The notes under the pieces are model-generated. The model did no database searches. It worked only from the letters and a program-made list of their open reading frames with translations, and was not told where the DNA came from. A stretch of DNA of 64,000 bases from Thermoplasmata archaeon. GTDB lineage: Archaea; Thermoplasmatota; Thermoplasmata; Lutacidiplasmatales; UBA184. A program made the position numbers and the translations under genes. Positions within the stretch are counted from its first letter, which is position 1; each line of letters begins with the position of its first letter. Below are positions 7,719-27,591 of this stretch, piece by piece. The stretch lies in NCBI GenBank assembly GCA_035532555.1, contig DATKQS010000009.1, positions 124,001 through 188,000 of the forward strand, written 5' to 3'.

Positions 7719-8356
7719 CGGAGGGCCGCGTGCAGTCGCGCGGCGACCTCCGCCGGCGTCCCCGCTGCGTCGATGGGTCGTAGGCGTCCCCGCCGTCGGT
7801 AGAAATCGAGCAGAGGGGCGGTCTGCTCCGTGTACACTTTCAGCCGGACGGCCACGGCTTCCGGCCGATCATCGGGCCGCTGAATGAGCTCCGTGCCGTC
7901 CCGATCGCATCGTCCCGCGACTCGCGGGGGTTGGGTCTCGAGATTGTACACGGTGGTGCACTTCGGACAGATCCGACGTTGGCTGAGCCGGGCGACGAGG
8001 ACATGGGACGGGATCTCGAAGGAAACGACGATCTCGCTGGGGGCGATCCCTTCGAGAGCCTCGGCTTGAGGGATGGTACGGGGGAACCCATCGAGGAGAT
8101 AGCCGGAACGCGCATCGGGTGCGGCGAGCCGCTCGGCCAGCATCTTCAGCACGAGGGCATCGGGGACGAGGCGGCCGGCGTCCATGAAGCCGCGCGCCTC
8201 CCTCCCGAGCACGGTTCCCGCGGCGACCGCCGCTCGCAGGATGTCGCCGGTGGATAGGTGGGGGATCCCGAGCTCCTTCGCGAGCGCGGCCGCCTGCGTG
8301 CCCTTGCCCGCCCCTGGGGGCCCCAGGAACACGATACGGTGCACGCCCGCGTCCAT
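7715..8356 (-). CDS. adk: Adenylate kinase
   Basis: Interconverts ATP+AMP and 2 ADP. It has 213 residues from ATG 8356. The P-loop is GPPGAGKGTQ at residues 12-21, followed by the AMP-binding LSTGDILRA and the GFPRTIPQAE segment. The lid carries CPKC plus a later Cys-Asp pair (GRCDRDG), i.e. a Zn-type lid. The size matches long-type AK. It overlaps the histidine phosphatase tail-to-tail by 4 bp and lies 35 bp after the UMP kinase gene, giving a nucleotide-kinase pair. Confidence 0.93.
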   Translation of the reverse strand: MDAGVHRIVFLGPPGAGKGTQAAALAKELGIPHLSTGDILRAAVAAGTVLGREARGFMDAGRLVPDALVLKMLAERLAAPDARSGYLLDGFPRTIPQAEALEGIAPSEIVVSFEIPSHVLVARLSQRRICPKCTTVYNLETQPPRVAGRCDRDGTELIQRPDDRPEAVAVRLKVYTEQTAPLLDFYRRRGRLRPIDAAGTPAEVAARLHAALR

Positions 8357-21406: not shown

Positions 21407-21425
21407 GCGGGCGCCTCGGTCGAGG

Positions 21426-21498
21426 TGCGGGCACCGGGATTTGAACCCGAGTTATAGGCTTGGCAAGCCTATGTGATACCAGACTACACTATGCCCGC
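21426..21498 (-). tRNA. tRNA-Gly (anticodon GCC)
   Basis: The minus-strand cloverleaf of 73 nt has acceptor GCGGGCA/TGCCCGC, anticodon stem TAGGC/GCCTA around TTGCCAA and T arm TCGGG/CCCGG around TTCAAAT. The discriminator is A; no CCA is encoded. All stems pair. A degenerate copy lies at 25802-25874. Confidence 0.95.
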
Positions 21499-21669
21499 GT
21501 GTCGCCGACTCCTCCTCGGAGCCGTGGCCCCATAAAACGGCGACCGTGCGCGGGCAGATCTACGACTTACGGGCAACGCGAGGCGGAGCTTCAGGGTGGG
21601 GGCGGGCGCGGTCCGGACGGTCTCCCTTGCGCTCCTAAGCCCGGGGTATGGTAATGGGCACAGGGCACG

Positions 21670-22036
21670 ATGGGCGAGAGTCGCTGGTCGGAGGGGGATG
21701 TCGTGGCCCTGAAGCACCCGGGCACTCCTCCGATCCTCGTTCCGTTGCGGCGGGGCCCCCAGCGGGTCGGCGACGCGGCGGTACTCGATCCGCGTGAGCC
21801 TTGGGACGTTCTCGCGTCAGTGCGGGCCGTGCTGTGCGACGGTGGTCGAGTAGTTACCGATACGCCCACGTAGACCCAACAGGAACGGACGGTGCGGTCG
21901 CTGAGGGGGATCGAGTTCGATGAGGTCAGGTCCGTGGAGCTCCCCGAGCAGTCCTTGCACGTCGGCGACGGGGGGAGGGCGCTGGCATTCGAGATGCTGG
22001 GACACACAGGGGTTCTGACCGTGACACGCAAGGTCG
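21670..22036 (+). pseudogene. trmI remnant (internal deletion and decay)
   Basis: The first 40 codons are identical in protein to the intact trmI at 26051. A 402-bp in-frame deletion removes the SAM-binding core, joined at a shared CTCGA. The frame resumes at EPWDVLASVRAVLCDGGRVV and then hits a TAG at 21871. Beyond it, sequence matching the trmI C-terminus (for example AFEMLGHTGVLTVTRKV) continues to about 22036 in a shifted frame. It cannot encode a methyltransferase. Confidence 0.85.
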
Positions 22037-22039
22037 GCC

Positions 22040-22240
22040 GACGAAGACCGCGACCTCCTGGTCGATCGCGGGACCCTCAGGGTCGTCTTGGCTGGAGGAT
22101 ACCTCTGGTGGGAATCAGGTTGGTTCACAATTCTCAAGGTCGTGAGAGCCGGTGCGACGATTGGCGGATGATGCCCGTGTGCAGCTCGACCAGTTCGTGG
22201 GTATCTCGCCCTCGTTACCGTGGCTCCTACGCCTCGCCGG
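22040..22240 (+). pseudogene. Remnant of the membrane gene that follows trmI
   Basis: Bases here align with 26827-27030. A short readable piece is VLAGGYLWWESGWFT, matching VLTGGYLWWEMGRYT of the intact gene, after which stops and shifts accumulate. It marks the right end of the left repeat. Confidence 0.65.
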
Positions 22241-22332: not shown

Positions 22333-23400
22333 TTATTCGATGCGATTCGTCCCCGTATGCGACATCAGACCCTCGTACCTGTGATCGATGACGGGCCGGA
22401 GCCACTGCAGCGATTCCCGAACGATCGTAATGGCGCGTAGGCGATCTTCGAAGAATGCCTGTACGGAGATCTTCCGCCCTAAGGACCGAGAGCGCTCAGT
22501 TCCTTGTCCCACAGCGAGAAACGCGAGGAGGACATCGCCGGTGCGTTCCCCATCCACCATCGCCAAGTACGGATACACACCGCACTCTGATACGATCTCT
22601 TCCAAGAGTCGTGTCCCGGTAGTCTTGCGGATCAGCCTGCCGTGTACGAACACAAAATCATGAAGGATGCGCCCGCGGAAGCTCGGGAGGCGGCCAAGGT
22701 CTGGAAGAACTCTCCATTGGACGAGTCCATCGGCGACGAGTTGTGCTTGATTCCGGGGCAACCCCAGAGGGAATGGAGGCACCGAGCGGCTGAGAAGATG
22801 GAAGTCGCGCCGACGCTCGGATGCCGCAACGAGATCGGCGGCGGCCCGGATTCGGTCGGGTGAAACCGGCCGCTCCTCGCCGTTGTCCCCCGGGGCTGGA
22901 TCGAGCTCCCGGATGCGAAGGGGGTAGGACCTGGGCCGGGCCAGCCCAAACAGAACGGCAAGTGGCCCTGAGGCATCGAAATAGGCTGGGACCCCCTCCG
23001 CGGTCGCGGGACACGTAATCCGGAGCGAGCGCGCCTGAGTGCTGCTGGTGAGCGAGTCAGTCGCCGGCGTGCTCTCCGCGGTCAGGCGAACGTAAAAGAT
23101 GACATTCGGGGAGCTCCAAGCCACGACGGTCTGAGGGTCGCTCTGGAGTCGCTGCAGGTCAGAGGCCCGGCGTGCCGCGAACGGCCAAAGGACTTCGGCC
23201 GTGGCGAATCTCACTCCGGTAACGCGGGGATGAGGCACGTAGCGGTCGTGAAGCCACTCTCTCGCGTAGAGGCGGCGGCGAACGTACTGGAACGTGGAAC
23301 GGGGAAGATGGCACTGCTGGATCAGCGCGCGCTCCGTGACCGGAGGCGCCCCAATCAGTGTCTGGATTACGCACGCCTCCGACTCACTTAGGTTCCGCAT
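22333..23400 (-). CDS. Winged-helix-like N-terminus protein of unknown family
   Basis: 355 residues. The N-terminal ~70 residues (ESEACVIQTLIGAPPVTERA, then a recognition-helix-like LPRSTFQYVRRRLYAREWLHD) resemble a winged helix-turn-helix. The rest is mixed alpha/beta with no motif I know, ending SLQWLRPVIDHRYEGLM. There are no membrane segments. It is divergent from the surface-protein gene across a 92-bp gap with an inverted repeat, suggesting it regulates that gene and itself. It sits inside the segment bounded by the tRNA-Gly/trmI repeats, so it was probably acquired. Confidence 0.65.
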   Translation of the reverse strand: MRNLSESEACVIQTLIGAPPVTERALIQQCHLPRSTFQYVRRRLYAREWLHDRYVPHPRVTGVRFATAEVLWPFAARRASDLQRLQSDPQTVVAWSSPNVIFYVRLTAESTPATDSLTSSTQARSLRITCPATAEGVPAYFDASGPLAVLFGLARPRSYPLRIRELDPAPGDNGEERPVSPDRIRAAADLVAASERRRDFHLLSRSVPPFPLGLPRNQAQLVADGLVQWRVLPDLGRLPSFRGRILHDFVFVHGRLIRKTTGTRLLEEIVSECGVYPYLAMVDGERTGDVLLAFLAVGQGTERSRSLGRKISVQAFFEDRLRAITIVRESLQWLRPVIDHRYEGLMSHTGTNRIE

Positions 23401-23434
23401 GAGCTCGCCAGGCGACGGTGTAGCATCCGGCTCA

Positions 23435-23451
23435 ATTTCCTATCGGGAAAT
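23435..23451. promoter_or_regulatory. Inverted repeat, candidate operator
   Basis: ATTTCC, five bases, GGAAAT forms a perfect 6+6 palindrome between two divergent genes, 9 bp upstream of the TATA box of the surface-protein gene. The position fits an activator or repressor site for the adjacent HTH-like protein. Confidence 0.45.
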
Positions 23452-23460
23452 CGAGGCCCG

Positions 23461-23469
23461 ATATAAATA
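23461..23469 (+). promoter_or_regulatory. TATA box of the surface-protein gene
   Basis: ATATAAATA ends 23 bp before ATG 23493, so the mRNA should be leaderless or nearly so. Its symmetry could also serve the divergent gene. Confidence 0.6.
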
Positions 23470-23492
23470 GAGTCACCTGGATTGCAACGACA

Positions 23493-25580
23493 ATGGGACG
23501 CGGACGGTTGGGCACGAGAGTAGGCAACGGCGTCGGAGCGATTGGACTGACTGCAATCATGCTTGCACTTGTAGTTTCAGCAATGCCCGGCATGGGGGCA
23601 TCCCCGGCCACCGGTGCAATCCCGCTGGTCTCGGCGAACGATGGCGAGGCATCGCACTACAACGTGACGTTCGTGGAGACCGGACTCGCGCCGGGGACCT
23701 CGTGGACGGTTGAGATGAACGACGTCACACGGAATTCGAGCACCTCCACGATCACGTTCCTCGAGCAGAACGGGACATACAACTTCTCGGTGGGTGACGT
23801 AGCGGGTTATACGAGCACGGGAGGATCCGGGACGGTCACGGTGGTCGGTCTCGCGCAGTCGGTCCCAGTGACGTTCAGCACGAAGGCCGTAGGTTCCTTC
23901 CCGGTGACGTTCGTGGAAACCGGACTCGCGCCGGGGACCTCGTGGACGATCGAGATGGGCGATGCCACCCAGAACTCGAGCACCTCCACGATCACGTTCC
24001 TCGAGCAGAACGGGACATACAACTTCTCGGTGGGTGACGTAGCGGGTTACACGAGCACGGGAGGATCCGGGACGGTCACGGTGGTCGGTCTCGCGCAGTC
24101 GGTCCCAGTGACGTTCAGCACGAAGGCCGTAGGTTCCTTCCCGGTGACATTCGTGGAAACCGGACTCGCGCCGGGGACCTCGTGGACGGTTGAGATGAAC
24201 GACGTCACACGGAATTCGAGCACCTCCACGATCACATTCCTCGAGCAGAACGGGACGTACCGCTTCTCGGTGGGTGACGTTCCGGGCTATGCTAGCTCGA
24301 CCACTTCTGGGGCCATCATTGTGAACGGAGGGGCGGCCACTGAGACGATCGACTTCACCGCGTTCGCCGAAGACACCTACCTCCAAGTCTCAGTCCTCCC
24401 CATCAACGCGTCGGTCACCGTCAACGGGCGATCGACGATTGGCTCCGAGGGAGTGTACGTCTGGACGCTGCTCCCGGGGTCGTACTACGTAAACGTGACC
24501 CTCGTGGGTTACACGCCCTACTCGAACCTTGTGATCGTGACGGCGGGAATGGCTACCGAGCTTTCCATAGTGCTTACGGCGCTCTCGACCTACGGGTATC
24601 TTGTCGGGACCGTGACGCCCGCCACGGCGACGGTAATCGCGAGCGGGGTGATCGTACCGATCGAGGATGGGGCGTTCAACGTGACCGTGGCCCCGGGAGC
24701 TTACTACCTCTCGATAACGGCGTCCGGATACGAAAGTTTGGTACTAGAGGCTAACGTCTTCGCCGGGCAGGCCACGCACGTCACGCTCAACTTGACGACC
24801 GCCCCGACGACCGTGACGCTCTCCGGGGAGCTCTCGCCCGCTAACGGCTCGGTGGTAGTGAACGGGTTCATCGCGTACGTGAACGCAACCGGCCACTTCC
24901 AGGTCTCGGTCCTGCCCGGAACGTATACCGTGTCCGTCTCCGCTCCGGGATATTTCCCGTTTTCTGAGAATCTGACCATCTTCTCGAGCGTCACCGTGAA
25001 CTTCACGTTGACAAAGGTGCCGGGATCGACCTCAATGAAGACCACAGGCAACGTGACCGCCACCGGGTACAACATTACGGTGACGGAGCTGACGAACGGC
25101 AACGGGAGCATTTCCGTCACGTTCACCTCTCAGGCCAACGGGACGTTGCTGGTCACGATCCCGTACGCGGAGGTCGAGAACGCCACTTTGGCGCAAGTCT
25201 TGTCCAGCCACGTCTACGTGAACGGTGTACTGTTCACGGACTTCGCGGTCACGGTCACGGCGAACTACACGGTCATCCTTACGGTACGCGGTCTACCAGC
25301 TGATCCGACCCTGTTGTGGACTTTCTCGTCATCTGGCTCACCTTCGGGGCCGGCTTCCGGATTCCTGGGGTTGCCCGGGAACCTCGGGTTCTATCTCCTT
25401 ACATCTATCGCTCTGGCGGCCATCATCGCGACGGTCCTCGTGTTGGCATTGAAACACAGGGAAGGTCGCCCGCCCTTGCCTCCACCGGGGGATGCCACTA
25501 AGGAGACAGAGACCACGGTGGGAAAGCAGCCGGACGTGGAGGATCTCCTCATCGACGTACTCGCCCCCCTGCCTGGGTGA
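23493..25580 (+). CDS. Repeat-containing, PEGA-like cell-surface protein with C-terminal anchor
   Basis: Secreted, membrane-anchored surface protein of 695 residues. A signal peptide (~1-36, ending SAMPGMGA) is followed by three ~80-residue repeats from residue 58, each starting VTFVETGLAPGTSWT. Three PEGA-like beta domains follow (~294-510), with motifs such as LLPGSYYVNVTLVGYTPYS and VLPGTYTVSVSAPGYFPFS. A further beta region precedes a helix near 633-657 and a short charged tail. There are many N-x-S/T sequons, so heavy N-glycosylation is likely. The repeat type is common in Thermoplasmata surface proteins. The role could be adhesion or S-layer attachment. It lies within the putatively integrated segment. 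Confidence 0.85.
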   Translation: MGRGRLGTRVGNGVGAIGLTAIMLALVVSAMPGMGASPATGAIPLVSANDGEASHYNVTFVETGLAPGTSWTVEMNDVTRNSSTSTITFLEQNGTYNFSVGDVAGYTSTGGSGTVTVVGLAQSVPVTFSTKAVGSFPVTFVETGLAPGTSWTIEMGDATQNSSTSTITFLEQNGTYNFSVGDVAGYTSTGGSGTVTVVGLAQSVPVTFSTKAVGSFPVTFVETGLAPGTSWTVEMNDVTRNSSTSTITFLEQNGTYRFSVGDVPGYASSTTSGAIIVNGGAATETIDFTAFAEDTYLQVSVLPINASVTVNGRSTIGSEGVYVWTLLPGSYYVNVTLVGYTPYSNLVIVTAGMATELSIVLTALSTYGYLVGTVTPATATVIASGVIVPIEDGAFNVTVAPGAYYLSITASGYESLVLEANVFAGQATHVTLNLTTAPTTVTLSGELSPANGSVVVNGFIAYVNATGHFQVSVLPGTYTVSVSAPGYFPFSENLTIFSSVTVNFTLTKVPGSTSMKTTGNVTATGYNITVTELTNGNGSISVTFTSQANGTLLVTIPYAEVENATLAQVLSSHVYVNGVLFTDFAVTVTANYTVILTVRGLPADPTLLWTFSSSGSPSGPASGFLGLPGNLGFYLLTSIALAAIIATVLVLALKHREGRPPLPPPGDATKETETTVGKQPDVEDLLIDVLAPLPG
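23664..24363 (+). repeat. Three in-phase 240-bp tandem coding repeats
   Basis: Units start at 23664, 23904 and 24144 with an exact 240-bp (80-codon) period. Units 1 and 2 are nearly identical over most of their length; unit 3 diverges in its last third. Near-identity at DNA level implies recent duplication or gene conversion. Confidence 0.9.
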
Positions 25581-25801: not shown

Positions 25802-25874
25802 TGCGAGCGCGGGGAATCGAACTCGAGTTACAGGCTTGGCAAGCCTATACGACACCAGACTACACCATGCCCGC
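25802..25874 (-). pseudogene. Degenerate tRNA-Gly (GCC) copy
   Basis: Same 73-nt length and anticodon arm (TAGGC TTGCCAA GCC) as the intact gene at 21426-21498. The T stem has two mismatched pairs (TCGAG against CCCCG), the D stem is disrupted, and acceptor pair 7-66 is A-C. It is unlikely to fold or be aminoacylated normally. The preceding gap 25581-25801 holds nothing recognisable. Confidence 0.8.
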
Positions 25875-26050
25875 GTGTCGCCGACTCCTCCTCGGAACCG
25901 TGGTCCCGTAAAACGGCGATCGTGCGCGGGTGGATGAACGGCTTCTGGGCATCGTGAGGCGGAGCTGCAGGGTGGTGGGGGTTCGGGCGCGGTTCGGAGG
26001 GTCTCCCTTGCTCTCATAAGCCCGGGGTATGGTGATGGGTACAGGGCGCG

Positions 26051-26824
26051 ATGGGCGAGAGTCGCTGGTCGGAGGGGGATGTGGTGGCCCTGAAACACCC
26101 GGGTACCCCCCCGATCCTCGTTCCGTTGCGGCGGGGCCCACAGCGGGTCGGCGACGCGGCGGTACTCGACCTGACCGAGCAGATCGGTCGGCCCGTAGGC
26201 GGCTCGATCGAGTGGGTGGGCACCCGGTACGCGGTCCTCCGGCCCTCGCTCTCCGATCTCCTCTCGACCATGACGCGCGGAGCCCAGATCATCACGGCGA
26301 AGGACGCGGCGTACCTCGTGCTCCTCGCCGGGATCGGCCCGGGGGACCGAGTGGCGGAGGCGGGCAGTGGCAGCGGAGCGCTGACGACCGTGCTCGCGTA
26401 CGCCGTCGGGCCCGCCGGGCACGTAGCCTCCTTCGATCGACGACCGGAAGCATTGCACCTCGCCCGGCAGAACCTCGAGCGCGGCGGACTCGCCGGTCGG
26501 GTATCCTTCCACGAGCGGGATGTCCTGGCGAACGGCATCGAGGGAACGGACTACGACGCCGTGGCGCTCGATCTGCCCGAGCCCTGGGGGGTGCTCCCTT
26601 CGGTGCGGGCCGCCCTCTGTAACGGAGGTCGTGTCGTCACCTATTCACCGACCTACAACCAGCTGGAACGGACGGTGCGCTCGCTGAGGGAGCTCCGCTT
26701 CGATGAGGTCCGCTCCCTCGAGCTCCTCGAGCGCCCCTTGCATGTCGGCGAAGGGGGCACGCGGCCCGCATTCGAGATGCTCGGCCACACCGGGTTCCTG
26801 ACCGTGGCGCGCAAGGTCGACTGA
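26051..26824 (+). CDS. trmI: tRNA (adenine-N1)-methyltransferase, TrmI family
   Basis: Methylates N1 of adenines 57/58 in the tRNA T loop, using SAM, as a tetramer. 257 residues. An N-terminal beta-barrel (LKHPGTPPILVPLRRG) is followed by PSLSDLLSTMTRGAQIITAK and the SAM motif RVAEAGSGSGALTTVLA. Catalytic region: DALDLPEPW-like sequence VALDLPEPWGVLP, then GGRVVTYSPTYNQLERTV. Length and motifs are complete. A broken paralogue lies at 21670. Confidence 0.92.
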   Translation: MGESRWSEGDVVALKHPGTPPILVPLRRGPQRVGDAAVLDLTEQIGRPVGGSIEWVGTRYAVLRPSLSDLLSTMTRGAQIITAKDAAYLVLLAGIGPGDRVAEAGSGSGALTTVLAYAVGPAGHVASFDRRPEALHLARQNLERGGLAGRVSFHERDVLANGIEGTDYDAVALDLPEPWGVLPSVRAALCNGGRVVTYSPTYNQLERTVRSLRELRFDEVRSLELLERPLHVGEGGTRPAFEMLGHTGFLTVARKVD

Positions 26825-26826
26825 CG

Positions 26827-27591
26827 ATGGTCGTGCTCTCCCTCACGATCGCGGGGGCGCTCGGGATCGTACTGACCGGAGGATACCTGTGGTGGGAGAT
26901 GGGTCGGTACACGACCCCGCAGGTCGCCGAAAGCCGCTTCGACGAGCGACGGATGATCTTCGCGTACACTCTCGGTCTGTTCGTCGGGATCCTCCTCTCC
27001 CTCCCATGGCTCCTGTACCTTGCGGCGATGACGAACGCCGCTCTGCTCGGCGCCTTCGCACTTCTCGCCGTGCTCGTCCTCTCGATCGAGCTCGCCGAGT
27101 GGGCGATCCGGCGGACCCACTATTGGGGAAAGGGTCCGAGCTTCCCGTTCTACGCGGTCGGATTGCGTGCGGGGATCGTCGGGATCCTCGTGCTGGCGCT
27201 CGTGGGTCAGTACCTCTCGGCCTCGACGATCACCTGGGACGGGACCTCCGTAGTGGGACTCCAGGCGGTTGCGATCGTGGCGCTCGAGGTAACGGGCGCG
27301 CTCCTGTCCCTACCCGCGACTGCGGCCGGAAGCCCGCGACGGGGGGCCGGTGTGCTCTCGGGCGCCCTCATCTCCGGGATCGGCTTGTTCCTCCTTGGGT
27401 TCAACGCCTTCGGCGGAGAGATCGTCGGGAGCATTGCGGCGGCGATCGTCCTGATCGGCTCGATCTATCTCTATCGGCGCGCGCGTGTGATCCTCGATCG
27501 CGTCCCGCCGCCGTCGCTCGTGGGAGCGCCAGCGCCGGTCTCGCCCGGCGGTCGATACGGGCGCAAGGACCGGGACCCTCCCTCGCGATGA
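26827..27591 (+). CDS. Multi-pass membrane protein of unknown function
   Basis: 254 residues starting 2 bp after the trmI stop, so certainly cotranscribed. About seven hydrophobic segments can be seen, including a first helix ending in GGYLWWEMGRYT, FAYTLGLFVGILLSLPWLLY, LLGAFALLAVLVLSIEL and a final pair around LISGIGLFLLGFNAF and IAAAIVLIGSIYLY. The C-terminal ~35 residues are Pro/Arg-rich and cytoplasmic. No family is recognised. Part of it is duplicated as a remnant at 22040-22240. Confidence 0.75.
   Translation: MVVLSLTIAGALGIVLTGGYLWWEMGRYTTPQVAESRFDERRMIFAYTLGLFVGILLSLPWLLYLAAMTNAALLGAFALLAVLVLSIELAEWAIRRTHYWGKGPSFPFYAVGLRAGIVGILVLALVGQYLSASTITWDGTSVVGLQAVAIVALEVTGALLSLPATAAGSPRRGAGVLSGALISGIGLFLLGFNAFGGEIVGSIAAAIVLIGSIYLYRRARVILDRVPPPSLVGAPAPVSPGGRYGRKDRDPPSR

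Follow-up and report, generated by a model that had tools for sequence, protein, structure and literature searches.

Among described systems that link the cell surface to transcription, SigI/RsgI of Clostridium thermocellum comprises several adjacent gene pairs per genome, with a cognate transcription factor, self-regulation, and a single-pass membrane sensor that has a variable outer domain and a constant cytoplasmic part (PMC4711584). As that source describes it, SigI belongs to the sigma factors, and RsgI has an anti-sigma part of about 165 amino acids at its N terminus. In the LytTR Regulatory Systems HdrRM and BrsRM, a regulator is likewise encoded beside a membrane protein and a conserved site lies near the promoter; according to the same account, such systems are present in some archaea, the regulator has a LytTR domain, and the membrane proteins belong to DUF3021 or DUF2154 (PMC6193735). 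Transmembrane transcription regulators are described as signaling from the outside to genes without a phosphorelay, with regulator and transmembrane (TM) segment in one chain (PMC10269533). Among archaeal regulators, the Lrp activators Ptr2, LysM, and Ss-LrpB are reported to use a site just upstream of the BRE/TATA with constrained spacing (PMC2995911), and EarA controls a surface structure from a position-constrained upstream site (PMC10665913). Little is known, above all for uncultured lineages, about how archaea perceive their surroundings and select what they display.

Here, we describe a gene pair from a Thermoplasmata archaeon that can be compared with each of these systems. It lies in a stretch of 64,000 nucleotides (the window; contig DATKQS010000009.1, positions 124,001 to 188,000) and consists of a regulator gene of 355 codons on the reverse strand (22333 to 23400) and a surface protein gene of 695 codons on the forward strand (23493 to 25580), with start codons 92 bp apart. 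As in SigI/RsgI, the regulator adjoins a single-pass membrane protein with a variable ectodomain and a constant inner part. In contrast to SigI/RsgI, the archaeal pair has a tandem Lrp-like winged helix-turn-helix (wHTH) factor, a tail at the C terminus that bears a motif of some 7 residues, and archaeal transcription, and Pfam and NCBIfam searches found no sigma domain in the window proteins. Unlike the LytTR systems, it combines an Lrp-like wHTH protein with single-pass surface proteins, mostly in divergent orientation, and neither window protein has a Pfam match to LytTR, DUF3021, or DUF2154. Whereas transmembrane transcription regulators are single chains, the HTH and TM parts here belong to two separate open reading frames (ORFs). 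With Ptr2, LysM, Ss-LrpB, and EarA, it shares an upstream site at a fixed distance from a TATA box, and EarA is similar in both geometry and surface target (PMC2995911, PMC10665913). The module was not described in the open-licence PMC literature that we searched.

The two ORFs lie where the original prediction, made from the DNA letters, had called them, and both are kept in the nearest relative, G001. Judging from dN/dS values in that comparison (0.19 for the regulator and 0.21 for the surface protein), the two genes are under purifying selection. The larger product had been predicted to be an anchored, glycosylatable surface protein. This is borne out by an N-terminal hydrophobic signal, a C-terminal TM segment whose peak window begins at residue 635, and 23 N-x-S/T sequons, whereas 1,000 shuffled sequences averaged 8.1 and had no more than 18. 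The protein contains PEGA domains (Pfam E 9.9e-16) and three repeats of 80 amino acids (240 nucleotides; 23664 to 24383), and the later DNA copies are 95% and 77% similar to the first, which suggests fairly recent tandem copying. The repeat is a common building block: it also occurs in 14 other long ORFs among those looked at in the same genome, and 27 stretches of the genome match the surface protein, its own gene among them. Across the regulator family, partner ectodomains differ, with PEGA, PKD, kelch plus PKD, or no Pfam match.

Lrp/AsnC proteins carry one wHTH and one RAM domain in a small chain of about 150 amino acids. The regulator of this pair differs in its length of 355 amino acids, in the apparent fusion of two such units, and in its link to a surface protein with a dedicated tail. 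Direct searches with the window regulator gave no Pfam or NCBIfam match, and the direct match of its family to Lrp was weak: the best PDB profile match was the Lrp protein PH1519 (151 to 171 amino acids), collinear through the HTH into the first part of RAM, at an E of 0.28. Family members (n = 37) align over their whole length (alignment A1, which leaves out the fragments or broken copies L059, L067, L071, L072, and L073). None of these 37 reached the Pfam cutoff for the RAM domain PF01037; 8 matched the TrmB family PF01978 at all, with a best E of 0.0068 and none at the curated cutoff, and the window regulator had no PF01978 match.

The descent of the regulator became readable through distant relatives. 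When the 37-member alignment was used to search the phylum, 33 of 389 genomes matched, 23 inside the same archaeal family and 10 outside it. The regulator-like proteins outside are also about 350 amino acids long, and in most of them the HTH part of the profile has two matches. Within the distant set, from which the fragment L067 was excluded for comparisons of halves, the N-terminal half matches the C-terminal half with an E of 1.9e-31, and the halves match Lrp proteins of the class with E values of 2.1e-9 and, for the C-half with RAM included, 1.1e-13. The regulator family in turn matches the distant relatives with an E of 5.4e-14. In these comparisons, the scores were 63 to 196, versus at most about 21 for shuffled-column controls. 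The corresponding match between halves is moderate within the family alone (E 2.6e-5), and the family C-half matches that of the distant relatives with an E of only 0.0065. Since the halves of the distant relatives are homologous and match Lrp, and the family matches these relatives, the best reading of the C-terminal part of the 355-residue protein is that it is a second, diverged copy of the N-terminal wHTH and Lrp/RAM-like unit. Thus, the predicted winged-helix-like N terminus gains support from profile evidence through relatives; the C-terminal part, which had been called unrecognized, indeed has no Pfam or NCBIfam match but can be read by way of those relatives. AlphaFold2, given the window sequence and L033 alone, produced poor models of the whole regulator and of its N-half (mean pLDDT of 32 and 38, respectively), and in the second of these, residues 1 to 40 (block means of 50 to 74) form three helices.

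Of 103 genomes of the archaeal family, 90 encode regulators of this kind, including all 36 of the good ones, with up to 8 copies per genome; a short-peptide search of genome contigs matched one relative and no more. At 72 fetched regulator loci, the upstream neighbor was divergent in 57, on the same strand in 10, and lacking in 5. Divergent neighbors looked secreted or anchored in 52 of 57 cases; for genes of other divergent pairs, the count was 15 of 176. A tail-bearing surface protein was adjacent at 51 of the 72 loci (44 divergent, 4 convergent, 2 upstream on the same strand, and 1 downstream on the same strand), counts that are not independent events because many of these loci represent one orthologous locus: 37 of the 66 partners compared fell into one homology cluster and 14 into another, with loci lacking a usable neighbor left out. 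Among the other 21 loci, the neighbor was missing or cut in 13, and the tail was missing despite a visible neighbor at 8 (L055, L067, L120, L121, L129, L131, L137, and L138). Because the pairing is kept in every orientation, the proteins themselves appear to be coupled, beyond promoters alone. A self-contained module of winged-helix regulator and anchored surface protein had been predicted, together with a survey of other genomes for the same pair. The survey found the pairing throughout the archaeal family, which supports the module; since the pairing recurs, the outcome named in advance as counting against it, that the two genes never occur together elsewhere, did not arise.

The inner part common to the partners is a cytoplasmic tail. 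After the last TM segment, a basic and proline-rich stretch is followed by a C-terminal motif, D-x-L-x-x-x-hydrophobic, which takes the form DPLxHLW-stop in the most numerous group and, in the group of the window, D-x-L-x-D-V-L. The tail of the window protein, KHREGRPPLPPPGDATKETETTVGKQPDVEDLLIDVLAPLPG (25452 to 25577, forward strand), ends in VEDLLIDVLAPLPG; its partner-specific motif, D-L-L-I-D-V-L, is a nonterminal variant outside the DPL pattern that was counted family-wide. Because a loose definition of the tail has a background of 20 in 141, our claims rest on stricter definitions. The motif was found in 0 of 110 other proteins anchored by a C-terminal TM segment, and the tail in 0 of 14 other ORFs of the window's genome with the same N-terminal repeat. 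Across the 103 genomes, a DNA pattern for DPL-type tails gave 98 matches, of which 85 were true and 13 were noise. Regulator genes stand beside 74 of the 85 true tails (73 no more than 4.5 kb away from a listed one, plus 1 more with a regulator). The other 11 lie on contigs that carry no regulator and break off at the tail gene or close to it; in 8 of these cases the match is to one and the same orthologous partner protein, and in 3 a contig start preserves the last residues alone. At the level of sequence, these comparisons show a tail that is confined to regulator-linked surface proteins.

Between the two genes lies a conserved, operator-like element of 25 bp that was missing from the original prediction (GGCGACGGTGTAGCATCCGGCTCAA, 23411 to 23435; family consensus TGCGACGgtgTAGCACGggGTCCAA). 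It is separated by 10 bp from the start codon of the regulator and stands 26 to 27 bp before the TATA-like box of the surface protein gene (GATATAAATAG, 23460 to 23470, forward strand). The consensus was present in 49 of 69 upstream regions, and 48 of the 69 beat all 100 shuffles in a leave-one-out comparison. By orientation, 46 of 57 divergent loci had the element versus 1 of 10 same-strand loci; in two of these 10, the regulator gene runs into the gene before it and might lack a separate promoter. Measured to the start codon of the regulator, the element is 10 to 23 bp away in most loci, mostly 18 to 20 bp, and 10 to 12 bp in the window's group, while the TATA-like box of the partner lies at +26 to +28 from the element in 34 of 47 loci. 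Perfect matches in the window's genome number two, precisely at its two regulator loci; at two mismatches, the pattern is as frequent as its reversed control (12 versus 12). One copy with a single mismatch lies away from both regulator genes (L196, G000:C6:95500-102000; site C6:98795-98815). The closest paralogues of the window (L036, L037, and L038) have its element variant, ending CGGCTC or CGGCCC. Covariation between the arms of the element was not significant by permutation (P = 0.10). The element was scored as absent at 11 of the 57 divergent loci; L051 was scored so because its start is misplaced, which puts the element at the edge of the scanned stretch. Divergent paralogues of a second class (L062, L064, L068, L069, L070, and L072) are without the element and may use another site. 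In one of them, L068, a different inverted repeat, ACAAGTT...AACTTGT, lies between the genes, upstream of the regulator at 8028, and is possibly a second type of operator.

Comparison of sequences demonstrates the pairing, the restriction of the tail, the tandem descent of the regulator via distant relatives, and an element shared at a fixed TATA distance in divergent pairs. That the pair is a functional module is very likely, and the regulator probably controls its partner through the 25-bp element. With somewhat less assurance, we propose a family of two-gene modules, each made of a surface protein with a variable ectodomain and a constant tail and of a cognate tandem Lrp-like regulator, with control through the element and contact through the tail; direct contact between tail and regulator is itself the favored reading, if modestly so. 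The regulator would bind the element and, once bound, act on the partner's promoter by analogy with the upstream-site activators Ptr2 or EarA. It could also limit its own gene, a possibility that follows from the closeness of the element to the regulator's own start (10 to 20 bp). Whatever the order of the genes, tail and regulator stay linked, which suggests that the two meet: the tail motif would bind the regulator at the membrane, and the abundance of the surface protein, or a ligand seen by its ectodomain, would set the amount of free regulator. If the contact is real, archaea would have in it an equivalent of sigma/anti-sigma sensing that draws on another protein family. The broadest version has about an even chance of being right: an archaeal class of transmembrane signaling without kinases or sigma factors, in which interchangeable ectodomains share a constant peptide by which a dedicated tandem Lrp-like regulator is captured, and a genome has several such pairs in parallel (up to 8 regulators), every one of them controlling its own surface protein. 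Our results suggest a previously unnamed kind of outside-to-gene signaling module in uncultured archaea, and the 7-residue tail offers a simple, testable handle on the path from tail to regulator to operator.

It is possible, though on balance unlikely, that this is an ordinary divergent regulator-target pair, in which control runs through the element and the tail serves sorting, assembly, or stability without ever touching the regulator. Local regulator-target pairs are described as usual for archaeal Lrp proteins (PMC2995911), and the element and its fixed spacing also speak for this reading. However, a shared divergent promoter does not explain why the tail stays beside the regulator in convergent and same-strand pairs, and its absence from all 14 other repeat-bearing ORFs and all 110 other C-terminally anchored proteins also speaks against it. 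The element could instead be the core promoter of the regulator gene and no operator, since at 10 to 23 bp from the start codon in most loci it would cover or flank that promoter. We regard this as improbable: the element is not TATA-like, it is nearly absent from same-strand loci (even though two of the 10 overlap the upstream gene), and it keeps its distance to the TATA box of the other gene in 34 of 47 loci.

Two further readings concern the surroundings of the module. The pair had been described as cargo, and direct repeats with tRNA-Gly do stand on both sides of it. The left copy (21424 to 22142) contains tRNA-Gly(GCC) (21424 to 21498, reverse strand), what a large deletion has left of trmI, and the beginning of the gene that follows; the right copy (25802 to 26926) contains tRNA-Gly(GCC) (25802 to 25874, reverse strand), an intact trmI (26051 to 26824), and the first part of the gene at 26827. 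In relatives, the trmI-membrane-protein block is single, with one tRNA-Gly(GCC) in 7 of the 8 stretches fetched around trmI (the eighth is short and has none), which would agree with a mobile element integrated at tRNA-Gly. Such elements leave short att repeats at the 3' end of the tRNA and carry an integrase. Here, by contrast, the repeats run through trmI into part of the next gene, the segment contains no integrase ORF, no excision products were seen, and G001 has the same doubled arrangement around the pair at 92 to 95% nucleotide identity. Decay has been reciprocal: the left trmI is lost in the window, and in G001 the right tRNA copy is no longer recognized (1 of 2 recognized). From their layout, the flanking repeats are an old duplication and not attachment sites; segmental duplication or single-crossover insertion fits better as their origin, and a mobile cargo is correspondingly doubtful, with little probability left to it. 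Least credible of all is a phase-variable switch based on the intergenic palindrome, the basis on which the module had been called switchable. The palindrome (ATTTCC-TATCG-GGAAAT, 23435 to 23451) and the TATA box both exist as predicted, but an inverted repeat as large arises in 11% of shuffles, and this one is missing from paralogues and, within the archaeal family, is shown by the species of the window and of G001 alone. Moreover, the segment has no invertase ORF, and the orientation is the same in G001.

Beyond the archaeal family, distant tandem forms of the regulator were found in 102 of 389 genomes and 63 of 155 genera. No tail-bearing surface protein stood beside the 11 distant relatives inspected at 10 loci, where neighbors were varied, and large transporter-like proteins adjoined four of them. 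In one other archaeal family, the distant tandem wHTH proteins L103, L105, L106, and L112 are each divergent from a transporter-like protein of about 1,400 amino acids, with 11 to 13 predicted TM segments where it is complete.
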